Assembly (NCBI GenBank): GCA_029559035.1
Contig: JAKQCT010000029.1
Coordinates: 1 to 37,442 of the forward strand
From: Acidobacteriota bacterium
GTDB taxonomy: Bacteria; Acidobacteriota; UBA4820
Reading direction: 5' to 3'
DNA length: 37,442 nt
Below the pieces are notes generated by a model. That model had not been told where the DNA came from. It ran no database searches and worked only from the letters and a program-made list of their open reading frames with translations. Below, in pieces: positions 1 through 6,281 of this stretch (the first letter of the stretch is position 1; every line of letters starts with the position of its first letter). The translations under genes were made by a program, and so were the position numbers.

Positions 1-216
1 CGTTCGCAAGCTCACTATGCTGAATACCCCCCGTATGTGAATGGCGCTCGGCCGAAGTGAATTCGTTCCTCGCGCCGATAGAGTATTTCATCGAAGGGTT
101 GAGAGCGCGATAATTTCAAGGCGATGCCCTGAACTGCTTCATAACGAAACGTAAAAAAACCCGATTCTCTTAAAATTCGCCAAAAATGGTAAAATGGTTT
201 TTTTAAGGAGATCGAA
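1..216. other. Intergenic start of window, no gene supported
   Basis: I see no convincing coding region here. The minus-strand open frames crossing this stretch are antisense to the GAF gene and show no recognisable protein. The last 60 bases are A/T-rich, as expected of a promoter region for the following gene. A TAAAAT hexamer at 190-195 is a possible -10, but I could not pair it with a good -35. Confidence 0.5.
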
Positions 217-753
217 ATGGGGATCAAGGAAGATATCAAAGCCATTTCCAAGGACAAGGGAAAAGGCAAGGACGGATTGAGCGAGGCGGGCAGGGTTATC
301 GCCGCGGCTGTCGCGAAGGCCGTAGGAGTTAAAAGCGACGAGGTCGCGCTGCTTCTTCTGACGACCACCGGCAATACGATGAGGTTCATCTGGCCTCCCC
401 CTCTTTTCCAGAGCAACGCGGCGCTCCCCGCGGATTACCAGAACGCCTTCGCCTCCTCGGTGCTGAAGACCATGAAGGGCAAGGTGGACAACAAGGTATC
501 CGAGAGCAAGCACCTCAAGTTCTTCGAGAACGTGAAAGGCATGGAAACCAGCGGTGTGCCCATCCAGAAGATGATAGCGGTGCCCCTGGTCCACGAACAG
601 AAGGCCATCGGCGTGCTGGAAGTCTCGAGAAAAGGCAAGAACCCTGACTCGGCGGGCCCCAACTTCACTCCCGAGGACGGACAGAAACTTGTCGCCCTGG
701 TCAAGGAGTTCGTCCCGGCCCTCGTGGAGCTCGTTCCCAACCCTTTTTTCTAG
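217..753 (+). CDS. GAF-domain protein
   Basis: A 178-residue soluble protein. The C-terminal half (about residues 105-170) has the GAF pattern: strands ending IAVPLV, then a turn and AIGVLEVSRK, then a helix beginning FTPEDGQKLVALV. This small-molecule or regulatory fold usually senses ligands or mediates dimerisation. The first 35 residues are Lys-rich and helical. There is no signal peptide, membrane segment or output domain, so it probably acts as a free sensor or adaptor. The ATG is preceded by AAGGAG (205-210) at 6 nt spacing. The S26 peptidase gene begins 9 nt downstream and the HD-GYP gene 14 nt after that, so the three are probably co-transcribed. The ligand is unknown. Confidence 0.7.
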   Translation: MGIKEDIKAISKDKGKGKDGLSEAGRVIAAAVAKAVGVKSDEVALLLLTTTGNTMRFIWPPPLFQSNAALPADYQNAFASSVLKTMKGKVDNKVSESKHLKFFENVKGMETSGVPIQKMIAVPLVHEQKAIGVLEVSRKGKNPDSAGPNFTPEDGQKLVALVKEFVPALVELVPNPFF

Positions 754-762
754 GAGTTCTTA

Positions 763-1260
763 TTGCATACCGAAAGGAACAGCCTGAATCCGCTGAAGTA
801 CCTGACCGCCGATCCGACGCGGATAAGAGTGTCTGGCAATTCCATGATGCCCTTCCTTGAAGAGGGGGATGAAGTCGAAGTCGTTGCTGCGGAAAGAAAA
901 GACTTCAGCCCGGGTGACCTTATCGTTTTCGACAGGCACGGCGATCTCATTGTACACAGGGTCATTAAGGCGGGAAAAGATCGCTTTCTCGAAATGGGCG
1001 ACAACCAGAGGAACGGATCGTGGTGGGAGTGGCAGGATCACCTGGGGAAAGTGGTGTCGCTGGTCAGTGCCGGCGGAGCGTTAATCCCGGTCGGCGAAGG
1101 TGCGTCCGCGTCAGCCGGAAGAAAGACGGCCAGGCTTCAGAGATTCAGGCTTCTTAGGAGCGCCCTCGAGAGAAAGGCAAGATTTCAAGGCCTGAAAAAG
1201 ATCGTCGGGCTTCCCTTCAGGTTCCTGGAATTCATGATGACGAAAAAGTGTTGGTTATAG
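763..1260 (+). CDS. S24/S26-family peptidase, ER-type Ser-His signature
   Basis: A 165-residue protein starting at TTG, with AGGAG (752-756) 6 nt upstream. Residues 23-30 (VSGNSMMP) match the serine box of signal peptidase I-like enzymes, with Ser27 as candidate nucleophile. GDLIVF (51-56), IVHRVI (63-68, His65) and EMGDNQ (77-82, Asp80) match boxes C-E of the ER/archaeal subfamily, where His replaces the Lys base. Unlike a true signal peptidase it has no N-terminal membrane anchor. It resembles the small soluble S26-like proteins often found beside peptide-maturation genes, but none are visible here. The C-terminal third is Arg/Lys-rich and helical and may bind membrane or nucleic acid. The substrate is unknown. 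Confidence 0.7.
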   Translation: MHTERNSLNPLKYLTADPTRIRVSGNSMMPFLEEGDEVEVVAAERKDFSPGDLIVFDRHGDLIVHRVIKAGKDRFLEMGDNQRNGSWWEWQDHLGKVVSLVSAGGALIPVGEGASASAGRKTARLQRFRLLRSALERKARFQGLKKIVGLPFRFLEFMMTKKCWL

Positions 1261-1274
1261 GGGGCAAAGGATAA

Positions 1275-3110
1275 ATGAAGCGGCGCGAACCGGTAAAAGA
1301 AGCAGACAAAGGCGACCAGGAAAACCTCATAAGGGAGGATGTGAAGCGGTACAGCATCTTCTGGGTGCTGATATTCCTGCTGGTGATACTGGTTGTAGTG
1401 CCGTTGGTGTCCTTCGCGCTGATGGCCATCAATACAAGCAAGACCTACCTGGAGGACACTCTGAGGGAGCGGCAGGCAAAGACCGCCGTAGCAGCGGCTT
1501 CTCACATACAAAGCCTCATGATGGAGCCCGAGGAGAGGCTCAAGACGCTGATAACAAGCTTCGAGATATATTCCTCGGACACCGACGTGTCCACGAAATA
1601 CGAGGAGATAATCGAGCACAGGATCCTCGACCTTTTCATTTCCGATCAGATCCTGATAGCCGCCTTCAGCGATCAGGCAGGAACGAGGATCCAGTCGTCG
1701 CGGCCGGAGGTCGGGGGCGCCCTGCTGGCATCCGTAGATCCGATAATACGCCAGTTCGGCGATGAGGCGCAGAAGGCGAACGGCCCTCAGTATTCGAGGG
1801 TTTACATCCTCCCCGTAAGGAACGAGATGGGCGCCGAGGAGGAGATGCCTGTGCGTTTCCTCGCTTCGCCCCTGCACAAGGACGGGGTTCCGATAGCGTC
1901 TCTCGTCGTGATGGTAAACCTCTCGATAATCCAGGAGGCCCTAGCTCCCTACGGGCGGGAGTTCAGCATGATCATCACGGACAGGAACGGCAAGCTGCTT
2001 TTCTTTTCCGAAGGAGAGGAGAAGCCCTCCCGTTCCCACGATTACAAGGACGATCCGATCTTCAGCTGGGCCCTTCAGGGCGAAGGGATCATAATCTCAT
2101 CGAACTCGAGCGTGCCGGTTGAAGAGGAGGGAAAGAAAAAGATATACCTCGTGACATGCTCGCCGATCGCCGATTACGGCTGGCTTCTTTTCTCCTACGT
2201 GGACAGGGGGCAGTTTTTCATGCCCATTACTTCCCTGCAGAAGCAGTCGACCGGCTGGGTCGTGATCTCGATACTCGGAGCTCTTCTGATAGGGGTCCTC
2301 ATAGCGAGGCAGATCACAAAACCGATCTCCAACCTGACAGAGGTGAGCCGCAAGCTGGCCCACGGCCAGTGGGGCAGCCGGGCGGACATAACCACGAGGA
2401 ACGAGGTCGGGGAGCTCGGTGAAGCGTTCAACTTCATGGCGATAAAGATCCAGAAATACATCCACGAAGTGGAAGCGAAGGCCGAAGAAAACAAACAGCT
2501 CTTCATGAGCTCGATCACCGCTATAGCGAACGCCATCGACGCCAAGGATCCTTACACTCGAGGCCATTCCGCGAGGGTCTCAGCCTACTCTATAGCCGTC
2601 GCGAAAGAATACGGCTTCGACGAGAAGGGCATAAGGATAGTGGAGATAGCGTCGCTGCTGCACGATGTGGGCAAGATCGGCATAGAGGACAAGATCCTGA
2701 GGAAGCCCGGAGCGCTTACCACCGAGGAGTTCGCGGTCATGAAGACCCATCCTTCGAAGGGTGCGGAGATACTGAATTCGATCAATCAGATGAAAGAGAT
2801 GATCCCGGGGATAAAGCATCACCATGAAAGGTGGAACGGCGGCGGGTATCCGGACAACCTGGTCAGTTCGAGGATCCCCATCCTGGCAAGGATAATCGGA
2901 GTGGCCGACGCCTTCGATGCCATGACGACCGACAGGCCCTACCAGAAGGCGATGACGTTCGTTACGGCGGCGACGAGGATCAACGACCTGACGCCGACGG
3001 TCTATGATCCGGATGTAACCGAGGCTTTCAACAACGCCTTCAGGACAGGAGTGCTCGACAAGCAGAGGATAAAGGTCGAGCAGGAATTGGCGAAAACGAA
3101 GGCGAACTAG
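1275..3110 (+). CDS. Membrane HD-GYP phosphodiesterase with periplasmic sensor and HAMP
   Basis: A 611-residue transducer. Residues about 27-50 form a first transmembrane helix. An extracytoplasmic region of roughly 270 residues follows, with the look of a dCache sensor. A second helix (about 325-345) leads into a HAMP linker containing the typical ARQITKPISNL. The C-terminal HD-GYP domain (about 415-600) keeps the metal-binding HD pair in LLHDVGKIGI (His463-Asp464), the downstream KTHP, the HHE motif and the GYP triad in NGGGYP. HD-GYP proteins hydrolyse cyclic di-GMP, and the intact residues suggest an active enzyme. It is the third gene of the GAF/S26/HD-GYP run and ends 8 bp from the convergent GTPase-kinase gene. 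The ligand is unknown. Confidence 0.9.
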   Translation: MKRREPVKEADKGDQENLIREDVKRYSIFWVLIFLLVILVVVPLVSFALMAINTSKTYLEDTLRERQAKTAVAAASHIQSLMMEPEERLKTLITSFEIYSSDTDVSTKYEEIIEHRILDLFISDQILIAAFSDQAGTRIQSSRPEVGGALLASVDPIIRQFGDEAQKANGPQYSRVYILPVRNEMGAEEEMPVRFLASPLHKDGVPIASLVVMVNLSIIQEALAPYGREFSMIITDRNGKLLFFSEGEEKPSRSHDYKDDPIFSWALQGEGIIISSNSSVPVEEEGKKKIYLVTCSPIADYGWLLFSYVDRGQFFMPITSLQKQSTGWVVISILGALLIGVLIARQITKPISNLTEVSRKLAHGQWGSRADITTRNEVGELGEAFNFMAIKIQKYIHEVEAKAEENKQLFMSSITAIANAIDAKDPYTRGHSARVSAYSIAVAKEYGFDEKGIRIVEIASLLHDVGKIGIEDKILRKPGALTTEEFAVMKTHPSKGAEILNSINQMKEMIPGIKHHHERWNGGGYPDNLVSSRIPILARIIGVADAFDAMTTDRPYQKAMTFVTAATRINDLTPTVYDPDVTEAFNNAFRTGVLDKQRIKVEQELAKTKAN

Positions 3111-3118
3111 AACAGGCT

Positions 3119-5185
3119 CTAATTTTTCGGGAGTTCGACAAGTATTATCGTCCCCGGCTCTACCTTGTCCGCGTGCATCGTCCCGCGGTATTTTTCCAGC
3201 ACCTCTCTGACGAGGAACAGCCCCACGCCACCGTTCTTCATAGATACCGGGCTGTCAGCTTCGGGGGTTCCGGAGACATTCAGACCCGAGGGATCCTCGA
3301 TCGAGAACCCCTCGCCGAAATCCCGCACGGAGAAGACGACCCTTTTATCGTCCTCCATCAGGAACACCTTGACCGATGTGCCCTCTGGCGTGAACTTCAC
3401 GGCGTTGTCGAGAAGTTGCCTCATAATGACGGAGGCATCTTCCTCGTTCATCGGAAAGACGATCGAGTCCGAGTCTTTCTTCACGACGGGCTGGACCTTC
3501 TTTGATCTGAACCTGGGAGCGAGGCTTTTGAGGACGCCGTCGAGTACTTGGGAGAGGTCGCAGGGCTTTCCTTTGAAAGGCTCTCTCACTCGCGAGACCG
3601 CAAAAAGGTGGGTCGCGAGATTCTCGAGCTTCTCCGATTCCCGGGAGATGGTTTCCAGGTGCTCTTTTCCCTTGTCGAACCACTTTTCCGGGTGTCTGGC
3701 CAGGAAGTCACAGCAGGAGCGTATAGCCGCCAGCGGGGTACCCATATCGCCTGACGCTTTATCCAGGAAAGCGTGTTTCAGGCTCTCCAGCGCCTTAAGC
3801 CGTTCCATCGCCCTCGACATGTCGGCTGTTTTTTCCACAACCCTTCTTTCGAGCAGTTCGTTGGCTTTGGATAATTCCCCGGTCAAAAAATTCGACGCCA
3901 ACCTGGGGGAGACCATCTTCTCGAAGAGGGATATCAGCCGCTGATTCTCATCGGACCGCGCTTCTTCGGCTGAAGAATAGATCAGGACAGCGAAGCGGGG
4001 ATCCGTTCCCGGGTCGCCCAAGACGAGCGGACAAAGGCTTTCGGGGACTGCCGCGACGGCTCCCGTAGCCGCCTCCAGCCGCCCCGGCAGGTCGTCTATT
4101 CTTCCGGCCTGATTCTTGGAAAAGAACCCGGCGGCTATGTTTCCCGCAGGCACCGAACCCGACCCCAGCAGGGGGTCTTTGTCGGCCCCGAAGCAGCCGA
4201 GCTCTTCCGCTTTTCCTCCGGAGGACCTCAGCAGCGTGAATACCCAGGAAGGCCTCAGCTGGGAGAATAGGCGGCCCGCCGTCAGAAGAAGCGAAACATT
4301 GTCCCTGAGAGAAGATGTCGCCACGCCGATCTCGTAGAGGAGCGTCATCTCCTTGAGACTAGCTTCGAGAAGCCTCGACAGGCGCGCTATCTCGTTGTGC
4401 TGTTCGGCCAGATCGGTAGTTGCTTTCAGCGCGGCGGAAAGCTGCTCCTCCTCGCTGAGCCCCGTCAGCGGCACCTTTGCCTGAAAGTTCCCTTTGTCGA
4501 TCTCCTCGGCGGCAAGCCTTTTTTTCTCGAACGGCTCGAAGAACCGCATCAGGCTTTCGACGACCTTTTCCCTGGTCACGCCCTTGCTCATGAGCCTGAA
4601 TTTGCCGATGAAAACGGCCAGGCTTTCGCCCACTGCCATCCTGAAAGTGTCGATCACTCCCTCGCCGTCGATTGCCGAAGCGAGTGTGACATGCCTGTGC
4701 CCGTCTATCCTCATCGCTTCGAGGATCTTCTCCGGAGGGGCGATGTTCCCGAGGTCCACCTTGTTGCACTGGATTATGACCGGTATCTCGTTGATGTTCA
4801 TTCCGTTGGCGAGCAGATTCGCTTTCATGTTCTCCCAGGAGCAGTAGTTCTCCTCCAACTGGCTTTCCTGGGAATCTGCGACGAAGACTATCGAGTCCGC
4901 GCCCGACAGGACTATCTTCCTTGTCGTGTTGTAGTGGACCTGCCCCGGCACCGTGTAGACCTGCACCCTGATGTGGTATCCCTGGATCTCCCCGAGGTCG
5001 AAGGGCAGGAGGTCGAAGAAAAGCGTCCGGTCCTCCGAGGTCTTCAGGGAGGTCACCTTGGTTATCTCTTCGGGATCCGTTATTTCATGCAGGGTCTCGA
5101 TGTTCGTGGTCTTCCCGCTTAGGGCCGGGCCGTAGTAGACGATCTTGAAAACGACCTCTTTTTCCTGGTTCCTGAACTGAACCAT
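3119..5185 (-). CDS. MglA/Ras-like GTPase fused to GAF-like and degenerate histidine-kinase domains
   Basis: A 688-residue fusion. Residues 1-195 form a small GTPase of the MglA type: P-loop GPALSGKT (19-26), TVPGQVHY (78-85) and NKVD (141-144). Residues about 270-430 look like a divergent GAF sensor. A coiled coil follows at about 435-470. The dimerisation region reads FLDKASGDMGTPL (473-485) where kinases have S-H-E-x-x-T-P-L, so Gly479 sits where the phosphorylated His should be. The ATPase domain looks intact: N box LLDNAVKF, G1 DFGEGF, G2 NGGVGL. It probably binds ATP but cannot autophosphorylate at the usual site. There is no signal peptide or transmembrane helix, so it is cytoplasmic. 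The start has GGAGG about 9 nt upstream. Its gene converges on the HD-GYP gene. Confidence 0.85.
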   Translation of the reverse strand: MVQFRNQEKEVVFKIVYYGPALSGKTTNIETLHEITDPEEITKVTSLKTSEDRTLFFDLLPFDLGEIQGYHIRVQVYTVPGQVHYNTTRKIVLSGADSIVFVADSQESQLEENYCSWENMKANLLANGMNINEIPVIIQCNKVDLGNIAPPEKILEAMRIDGHRHVTLASAIDGEGVIDTFRMAVGESLAVFIGKFRLMSKGVTREKVVESLMRFFEPFEKKRLAAEEIDKGNFQAKVPLTGLSEEEQLSAALKATTDLAEQHNEIARLSRLLEASLKEMTLLYEIGVATSSLRDNVSLLLTAGRLFSQLRPSWVFTLLRSSGGKAEELGCFGADKDPLLGSGSVPAGNIAAGFFSKNQAGRIDDLPGRLEAATGAVAAVPESLCPLVLGDPGTDPRFAVLIYSSAEEARSDENQRLISLFEKMVSPRLASNFLTGELSKANELLERRVVEKTADMSRAMERLKALESLKHAFLDKASGDMGTPLAAIRSCCDFLARHPEKWFDKGKEHLETISRESEKLENLATHLFAVSRVREPFKGKPCDLSQVLDGVLKSLAPRFRSKKVQPVVKKDSDSIVFPMNEEDASVIMRQLLDNAVKFTPEGTSVKVFLMEDDKRVVFSVRDFGEGFSIEDPSGLNVSGTPEADSPVSMKNGGVGLFLVREVLEKYRGTMHADKVEPGTIILVELPKN

Positions 5186-5233
5186 CAGGCCCGCCCTCCG
5201 ATCTCTTCGAACAACGAAACTACCGCTGCAGCG

Positions 5234-5262
5234 ATATTAAGTTAGCACGAAAAAGGAAACAA
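5234..5262 (-). promoter_or_regulatory. Putative sigma70 promoter of the GTPase-kinase gene
   Basis: Read on the minus strand, TTGTTT (5262-5257) and TAATAT (5239-5234) are separated by 17 bp in the gap between the HD-hydrolase gene and the GTPase-kinase gene. The -35 box is weak. Confidence 0.35.
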
Positions 5263-5270
5263 ACTCAAGG

Positions 5271-5837
5271 TCATGCCGTTCCGAACCCGAGTTCTTTTTC
5301 CACGGCGGCGAGCGAGGCTCTGACGAACTCGATGTGTTCGGCAGGGTCGATCCCCATTTCCCCGGTCCCCTGGACGATCTCATCCCTGTTGACGCTCTTT
5401 GCGAAGGCCTTGTCTTTCATCTTTTTCTTCACGCTAGACACTTTCACCGATCCGAACGACTTGTCGGGCTGGACATAAGCGCAGGCGAAAAGGAACCCCA
5501 CAAGCTCGTCGACGGCGAAAAGAGTTTTGGCCATGAGGCTGTTCCTCGGCGTCCCGGAGTAGGAAGCGTGGCCAAGTACGGCTTCCACGAGCTGTTCCGG
5601 GTAGCCCTTCGCCCGGAGTTCTTCCGCGCCTCGGAAGGGGTGGTCCTCCCTGGTGGGAAACCTTTCGTAATCCAGGTCGTGCAGGAGCCCAGTCATGCCC
5701 CAGAGTTCGGGGTCCTCTCCGAACTTAACGGCGTAGGCCCTCATTGCCGCTTCAACCCCGAGGGCGTGCCTGACAAGGCTTTCCGACTTGGTCCATTCCT
5801 TCAAAAGTTGCAGTGAAGACGCTCTATCCATGGCCAT
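5271..5837 (-). CDS. HD-domain phosphohydrolase
   Basis: A soluble HD-superfamily protein of 188 residues. The motifs are an early His in VRHALGVE, the metal-binding HD pair in GLLHDLDYERFP, a following HPFRGAEEL, and HAS in VLGHASYSG. This pattern matches the stand-alone HD hydrolases often annotated HDIG or YedJ-like, which are metal-dependent nucleotide or phosphate-ester hydrolases. The substrate is unknown. An ATG lies at 5849, but GGAGG overlaps that codon and sits 5 nt before the ATG at 5837, so I chose 5837. The gene follows the GTPase-kinase gene on the map but precedes it in minus-strand transcription, with an 85-bp gap that holds a possible separate promoter. Confidence 0.75.
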   Translation of the reverse strand: MAMDRASSLQLLKEWTKSESLVRHALGVEAAMRAYAVKFGEDPELWGMTGLLHDLDYERFPTREDHPFRGAEELRAKGYPEQLVEAVLGHASYSGTPRNSLMAKTLFAVDELVGFLFACAYVQPDKSFGSVKVSSVKKKMKDKAFAKSVNRDEIVQGTGEMGIDPAEHIEFVRASLAAVEKELGFGTA

Positions 5838-5850
5838 CCGAGCCTCCATT

Positions 5851-5878
5851 TTGAATAAAACCGCGAATATAATATAAT
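5851..5878 (+). promoter_or_regulatory. Putative promoter of tRNA-Ala
   Basis: TTGAAT (5851-5856) and TATAAT (5873-5878) are 16 bp apart, and the -10 box ends 11 bp before the tRNA 5' end. That is a tight arrangement for a stable-RNA gene. The box lies in the divergent gap with the HD-hydrolase gene. Confidence 0.6.
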
Positions 5879-5889
5879 ACCATCCTCGT

Positions 5890-5947
<58 letters not shown>

Positions 5948-5965
<18 letters not shown>

Positions 5966-6281
5966 TTTCTTTTATAATTGAACCAAGGTAAACGGGCAAA
6001 CTGCTTTGCCCGAGTAGGGATGAGAAGGCCGCAGCCTTGCGCGAGTTTCCCGAAGGGAAGGCGAGCGCGGCGAGGCGGGCCTGCGAGAAATTGCCGTCAG
6101 GCAATTTACTTGTAGGAGAATCCCTTGCTTCGAGGCTATCCCTTACCGTCCACCATTTTTGTATTACATCCTGAATAAGCGGGATTCTCACCCACATATC
6201 CTCCCCACCCCCTCCTTTTTCAAAAAGGAGGGGCCAAAGGTAGTCGTCCATCTCCAATGGCCGAATTCTTACCGTCCACCA
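5948..6281 (+). repeat. Three direct copies of the tRNA-Ala 3' end (candidate att scars)
   Basis: The last part of the tRNA plus TTT occurs at 5948-5968 and again, identical over 21 bp, at 6138-6158. A third copy matches 14 bp (CTTACCGTCCACCA, 6268-6281) and is preceded by a decayed T arm (GGCCGAATT). Copies 1 and 2 are 190 bp apart. Copies 2 and 3 are 126 bp apart. Direct repeats of a tRNA 3' end are what site-specific integrases leave when elements insert. No integrase or element genes remain between them. The interval 5966-6137 holds palindromes (GGGCAA..TTGCCC and AAATTGCC..GGCAATTT) but no gene. Confidence 0.75.
6209..6233. repeat. Perfect 12-bp inverted repeat
   Basis: CCCCTCCTTTTT (6209-6220), one base, then AAAAAGGAGGGG (6222-6233). 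It sits between tRNA-3' copies 2 and 3. No T-run follows on either strand, so it is not an obvious terminator. A second stem, GCAAGCCA/TGGCTTGC, lies at 6309-6330, just past the stop of the secreted-protein gene, and could help end that transcript. The rest of 6282-6372 shows no gene. Confidence 0.6.

Follow-up and report, generated by a model that had tools for sequence, protein, structure and literature searches.

Small GTPases of the MglA family, represented by those of Myxococcus and Thermus (Group 1, PMC4316618), are single-domain proteins of 150-240 aa, and sequences longer than 240 aa were dropped from the main prokaryotic small-GTPase survey (Wuichet and Sogaard-Andersen 2014, PMC4316618). 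Cooperation between a GTPase and a histidine kinase is already known where the two are separate proteins. In the actinobacterial conservons (AGPS), a Ras-like GTPase, a histidine kinase and GAF-type modulation are provided by separate genes for CvnA, CvnB, CvnC and CvnD in one operon, and CvnA8 autophosphorylates on His183 (PMC13343842). Pseudo-histidine kinases are known as well. DivL of Caulobacter has Tyr in place of the phospho-acceptor and PAS input domains, and functions through binding to a phosphorylated receiver, with no kinase or phosphatase activity involved (PMC4211667). ChrS of Corynebacterium glutamicum is also described as a pseudokinase version of a histidine kinase, and the available text on it reports no GTPase domain (PMC9491836). 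A literature search found no study of MglA-kinase fusions or of the loss of their histidine.

The gene described here is located in a window of 37,442 nucleotides (the whole stretch analysed; contig JAKQCT010000029.1 of Acidobacteriota assembly GCA_029559035.1, here genome G000) and predicts a 688 aa protein that joins an MglA-type GTPase to a kinase module. Fusions of this type fall outside the main small-GTPase survey because of its 240 aa limit. The GTPase has TVPGQ, Arg53, Gln82 and NKxD in common with MglA, but the fusion carries an additional kinase-type C-terminus of 490 aa and has no adjoining mglB. Unlike the conservons, it is a single polypeptide without an acceptor histidine, and it differs from HisKA kinases in having Gly479 at the acceptor position and no cognate response-regulator gene nearby. 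It resembles DivL in its replaced acceptor, in the histidine-kinase fold (recognised here from sequence only) and in largely keeping the other boxes, but has Gly where DivL has Tyr and a GTPase where DivL has PAS domains.

Domain architecture and the acceptor position

The fusion gene and its parts are as follows.

3119-5185, minus strand: fusion gene, 688 aa from ATG (MglA-type GTPase, putatively GAF-like middle region, coiled coil, DHp, CA (HATPase))
4601-5185, minus strand: GTPase domain, residues 1-195, by match to solved MglA structures
5108-5131, minus strand: P-loop GPALSGKT, residues 19-26, by motif
4940-4954, minus strand: G3 motif TVPGQ, residues 78-82, with catalytic Gln82, by motif
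4754-4765, minus strand: G4 motif NKVD, residues 141-144, by motif
3866-4600, minus strand: middle region, residues 196-440, aligning with the same region of relatives
3581-3781, minus strand: DHp helices, residues 469-535, by Pfam HisKA and alignment to solved kinases
3731-3754, minus strand: degenerate H box SGDMGTPL, residues 478-485 (SHE[MI][KR]TPL in relatives)
3122-3580, minus strand: CA (HATPase_c) domain, residues 536-688, E 1.7e-12
3386-3418, minus strand: N box around Asn594, retained, by alignment
3305-3322, minus strand: G1 box DFGEGF, residues 622-627, retained, by alignment
3215-3235, minus strand: G2 box NGGVGLF, residues 651-657, with Asn for the first Gly, by alignment

The first-pass annotation of a Ras/MglA-like GTPase joined to a histidine-kinase module is borne out by Pfam, with matches to Arf (E 5.4e-5, above its cut-off), HATPase_c (E 1.7e-12) and HisKA (E 4.8e-5, slightly below its cut-off), and by solved structures. 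Among solved structures, the GTPase domain is closest to Thermus MglA (3t12) and Myxococcus MglA (6hjh, 5ymx), at E 8.8e-46 to 4.9e-45 and about 160 bits. The P-loop and NKxD, starting at residues 19 and 141, respectively, were correctly recognised in that annotation. Arg53 is also retained, and all MglA-family hallmarks (P-loop, TVPGQ, intrinsic Arg and Gln, NKxD) are present. The middle region (196-440) gave no match in a Pfam search and is predicted to be GAF-like. Three more MglA-type GTPases in the same genome (L003, L005, L006) carry acidic or proline-rich C-terminal tails of 150-200 aa.

Direct alignment pairs residue 479 with the phospho-acceptor His of HK853 (PDB 2c2a) and of other solved kinases. 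The residue is Gly, codon GGC at 3749-3751, exactly as the annotation had numbered it, and the flanking Asp480 and Gly482 also differ from the SHEMKTPL of relatives. A sequencing or assembly error at this codon might be suspected in a metagenome-type assembly of 99 contigs, but a single wrong base call cannot explain Gly479 because a His codon requires two changes and the neighbouring residues are altered too; with a 688 aa open frame, a native GC3 of 75% and similar losses elsewhere, such an error is barely conceivable. Phosphorylation on another residue, for which His471 was the candidate named earlier, is highly improbable: His471 sits eight residues ahead of the acceptor position, but relatives carry Lys or Arg there, and no H-E/D-x-x-T/N motif surrounds it. 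The window protein cannot act as a conventional kinase.

All three ATPase boxes (N, G1 and G2) had been described as retained. This holds for N and G1, but not fully for G2 (GxGxGL), whose first Gly is Asn651. Relatives also have three more residues in the segment ahead of G2, and the two changes together may leave ATP binding weak. In a leave-one-out comparison, the window protein departs from positions fixed in every other member at 10 of 32 in the coil and DHp, 8 of 35 in CA and 2 of 91 in the GTPase; the corresponding counts for a second copy in the same genome, on contig C37, are 2/24, 4/31 and 2/91. The fast evolution of the coil and DHp, the missing G2 Gly and the shortened lid region would fit a vestigial kinase, in which the GTPase does the work and the histidine-kinase module is a decaying dimerisation tail en route to loss, but the intact N and G1 boxes speak against this.

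Genetic context and a second copy

The fusion was found in all 13 genomes of the order examined. In the order's remaining genomes, 11 orthologues extend across position 479, and all have His there, in the motif SHE[MI][KR]TPL, hence Gly479 is a lineage-specific loss and not a family trait. Close homologues with a standard His, named in advance as evidence against the first-pass claim, do therefore exist; they dispose of a His-less family, but the His-less window protein stands.

The features adjoining the fusion are the following.

1275-3110, plus strand: convergent HD-GYP protein (Pfam Cache, HAMP, HD_5)
5186-5270, no strand: 85-bp gap, occupied in G001 (L027) by genes for a histidine kinase and a receiver-domain protein
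5271-5849, minus strand: small HD-domain protein (Pfam), syntenic in L027

In G001, a member of the same family, the genes run HD protein, histidine kinase, receiver-domain protein, fusion, convergent HD-GYP, signal-peptidase-like protein and 178 aa protein (L027). The window order is identical minus the kinase and receiver genes, and 85 bp separate the HD gene from the fusion. The window locus thus has neither the kinase and response-regulator pair nor the His, with the GTPase fully and the ATPase site mostly retained. A receiver profile detected no receiver gene in the neighbourhood, and the fusion had no DUF4388 gene in its vicinity, despite 15 DUF4388 matches in the 2.9-Mb genome. The MglB-type gene of the genome adjoins a separate, plain mglA on contig C57 (L004, L242). 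Promoter and terminator scans gave nothing usable, and a scan for the H-box DNA in viral contigs gave no match.

The convergent neighbour is an HD-GYP protein as first annotated, and is found in the same arrangement at four relatives' loci (L027, L031, L032, L033). This conservation in part of the order is all that stands behind the suggested connection with cyclic di-GMP, which is possible but weak. The motif of the window HD-GYP protein, HHERWNGGGYP, has Asn in place of the usual Asp.

The second fusion copy, on contig C37, is 49-50% identical to the window protein and retains His in an H box SHQIITPL, with Gln in place of the usual Glu. Adjacent to it is the only full-length copy of the G001-type receiver protein in the genome. 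GC3 is 53-64% for the fusion, kinase, receiver and transposase genes of C37, compared with 80-83% for the genes that follow on the contig and 75% for the window fusion; these genes (receiver, histidine kinase, second fusion and rve transposase) form a transposase-flanked, low-GC3 island at 29-6185 (L026). The C37 copy groups with a low-GC sister genus in the tree (support 98/97). An origin of the window and C37 copies as sister duplicates was rejected (AU p 0.011), and, together with base composition, this indicates that the C37 island was probably acquired laterally. On the simplest interpretation, the genome's native copy is the one in the window and the C37 set was acquired, though C37 may be a chimeric contig.

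In HisKA kinases, the Asp and Thr of the H box serve catalysis and dephosphorylation. As Asp480 and Thr483 are both present in the window protein, and the C37 response regulator is the sole full-length copy of its kind, the window protein could be a monofunctional phosphatase, or a DivL-like receiver binder, for that regulator. This is unlikely. The C37 system looks horizontally acquired and would share no evolutionary history with a native protein, the Thr/Asn at H+4 is missing in two of the three His-less lineages other than the window, and DivL itself is without phosphatase activity (PMC4211667). Less likely again is a heterodimer in which the window protein gives the ATP-binding and GTPase signals and the C37 copy, with which it shares 49-50% of its residues, gives the His. 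The C37 copy appears foreign, having split from the window copy before the two met, its SHQ H box lacks the usual Glu, and in the other His-less genomes searched there was no second full-length copy with His (threshold 1e-70).

Loss of the histidine and absence of adjacent receiver genes across the phylum

A profile of the order-level family gave strong matches in 92 of 396 Acidobacteriota genomes, and 75 fusion proteins of >500 aa were aligned. Arg53, Gln82, Asn141, Lys142 and Asp144 are identical in 75/75; as most of the more distant sequences were chosen by the patterns GxxxxGKT and T[VI]PGQ, the conservation of the P-loop and Gln82 is partly by construction, but that of Arg53 and NKxD is unaffected.

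Fusions with intact N and G1 boxes, and G2 intact or partly so, were classed as ATPase-intact. In this class, the acceptor is His in members of the order and in L023, L024, L054, L056-L058, L060, L062-L067, L075, L079 and L090. It is Gly in the window, Ala in L082 and L072, Asp in L084, Asn in L086, Gln in L077 and L080, Ser in L087, Thr in L088 and L089, and Glu in L073 and L083. A tree of GTPase and middle columns only, with kinase columns left out, requires at least four independent losses of His (to G, to A/D/N, to Q and to S/T/E). For comparison, the HisKA acceptor position was read in three genomes with His-less fusions: in 14 matches from the window genome, the best 30 of 50 from G379 and the best 30 of 39 from G197. 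Fusions aside, His was missing in three (L163, L214, L222) and two were unreadable in frame; the resulting figure of about 4% is a lower bound because the control favours high-scoring matches. One of the three, L163 (contig C49 of the window genome, 11355-11570), is a further HisKA-type match, AADELEAPVREV, with Asp at the acceptor place.

The three His-less lineages besides the window retain Asn594, G1 and some or all of G2, which speaks against a module on its way out, but L068-L071 and the f23 group, which have lost the ATPase motifs too, illustrate such decay. Members of f23 (L093, L095, L097, L098 and related loci) have a C-terminal receiver and degenerate ATPase motifs, and often keep the His (LFHEAANRL), a reverse pattern of decay. 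For close His-less pairs, dN/dS of the CA domain is 0.112 (L084/L086), 0.035 (L088/L089) and 0.050 (L088/L110), similar to the 0.024-0.165 of His-containing pairs. These low values, obtained from other lineages since the window protein is without a close relative, indicate that the His-less module is maintained by selection in the L084/L086 and L088/L089/L110 lineages. With strong purifying selection on CA in those lineages set against it, a vestigial kinase is a somewhat unlikely explanation for the window protein.

Among ATPase-intact fusions with readable flanks, a receiver profile found a receiver gene up to 3 kb away for 23 of 24 fusions with His (usually no more than 300 bp away) and for 0 of 12 without. 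The association has a Fisher p of 1e-8 when relatedness is ignored; a paired phylogenetic test cannot be significant, as there are only three to four independent contrasts. L066, a sister of a His-less clade, retains His but has no receiver gene within 4 kb. It is an apparent intermediate, and its state suggests that the response regulator was lost before the His.

Genes for TPR-DUF4388 proteins lie beside the His-less fusions L087, L088 and L083 (L136 2677-4197, L137 6491-8041 and L139 469-1989), and a DUF4388 gene lies beside His-less L072 (L130 5081-6454). These neighbours, in two lineages, are candidate new partners. DUF4388 is one of the PATAN-type domains. PATAN genes have been found close to mglA (PMC4316618), and the available text on SgmX describes it as a TPR effector of MglA (PMC7519303). 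The DUF4388/TPR neighbours hint at output through MglA-type contacts.

Predicted role of the fusion

From the sequence comparisons, the window gene is most likely its genome's own, native representative of a family of MglA-type GTPase/GAF-like/histidine-kinase fusions that spans the phylum. Ordinary fusions, with His and an adjoining receiver gene, look like two-component sensors in which the GTPase would be the input domain. The window protein appears to be a retained pseudokinase, controlled by its GTPase and binding ATP, that would act by protein contact and not by phosphotransfer (probability roughly 0.6). A pseudokinase switch in place of a phosphorelay had been proposed from the window alone; repeated His loss and the absent partner response regulator favour it, and it is the best reading.

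In such a switch, the nucleotide state of one domain may be read by the other. The GTP- or GDP-bound state of the GTPase might be governed by MglB or another partner; the GTPase domain and the DHp/CA dimer, ATP-bound or empty, would alter each other's conformation. The output would be a protein-protein contact made without autophosphorylation, either through the GTP-bound MglA face or through a DivL-like contact between the DHp face and a receiver.

For the family as a whole, we propose tentatively, and at a little under even odds, that MglA-kinase fusions are an evolutionary class that has repeatedly discarded its phosphorelay output, the response regulator and then the His, and kept the GTPase and ATPase, giving one-protein GTP/ATP switches that signal without phosphotransfer. 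Pseudo-histidine kinases such as DivL are usually treated as single cases. Here, versions with and without His occur side by side with at least four independent conversions, making the route and order by which a kinase leaves the phosphorelay testable, and the family allows one to ask whether a Ras-type GTPase drives a GHKL ATPase dimer directly.
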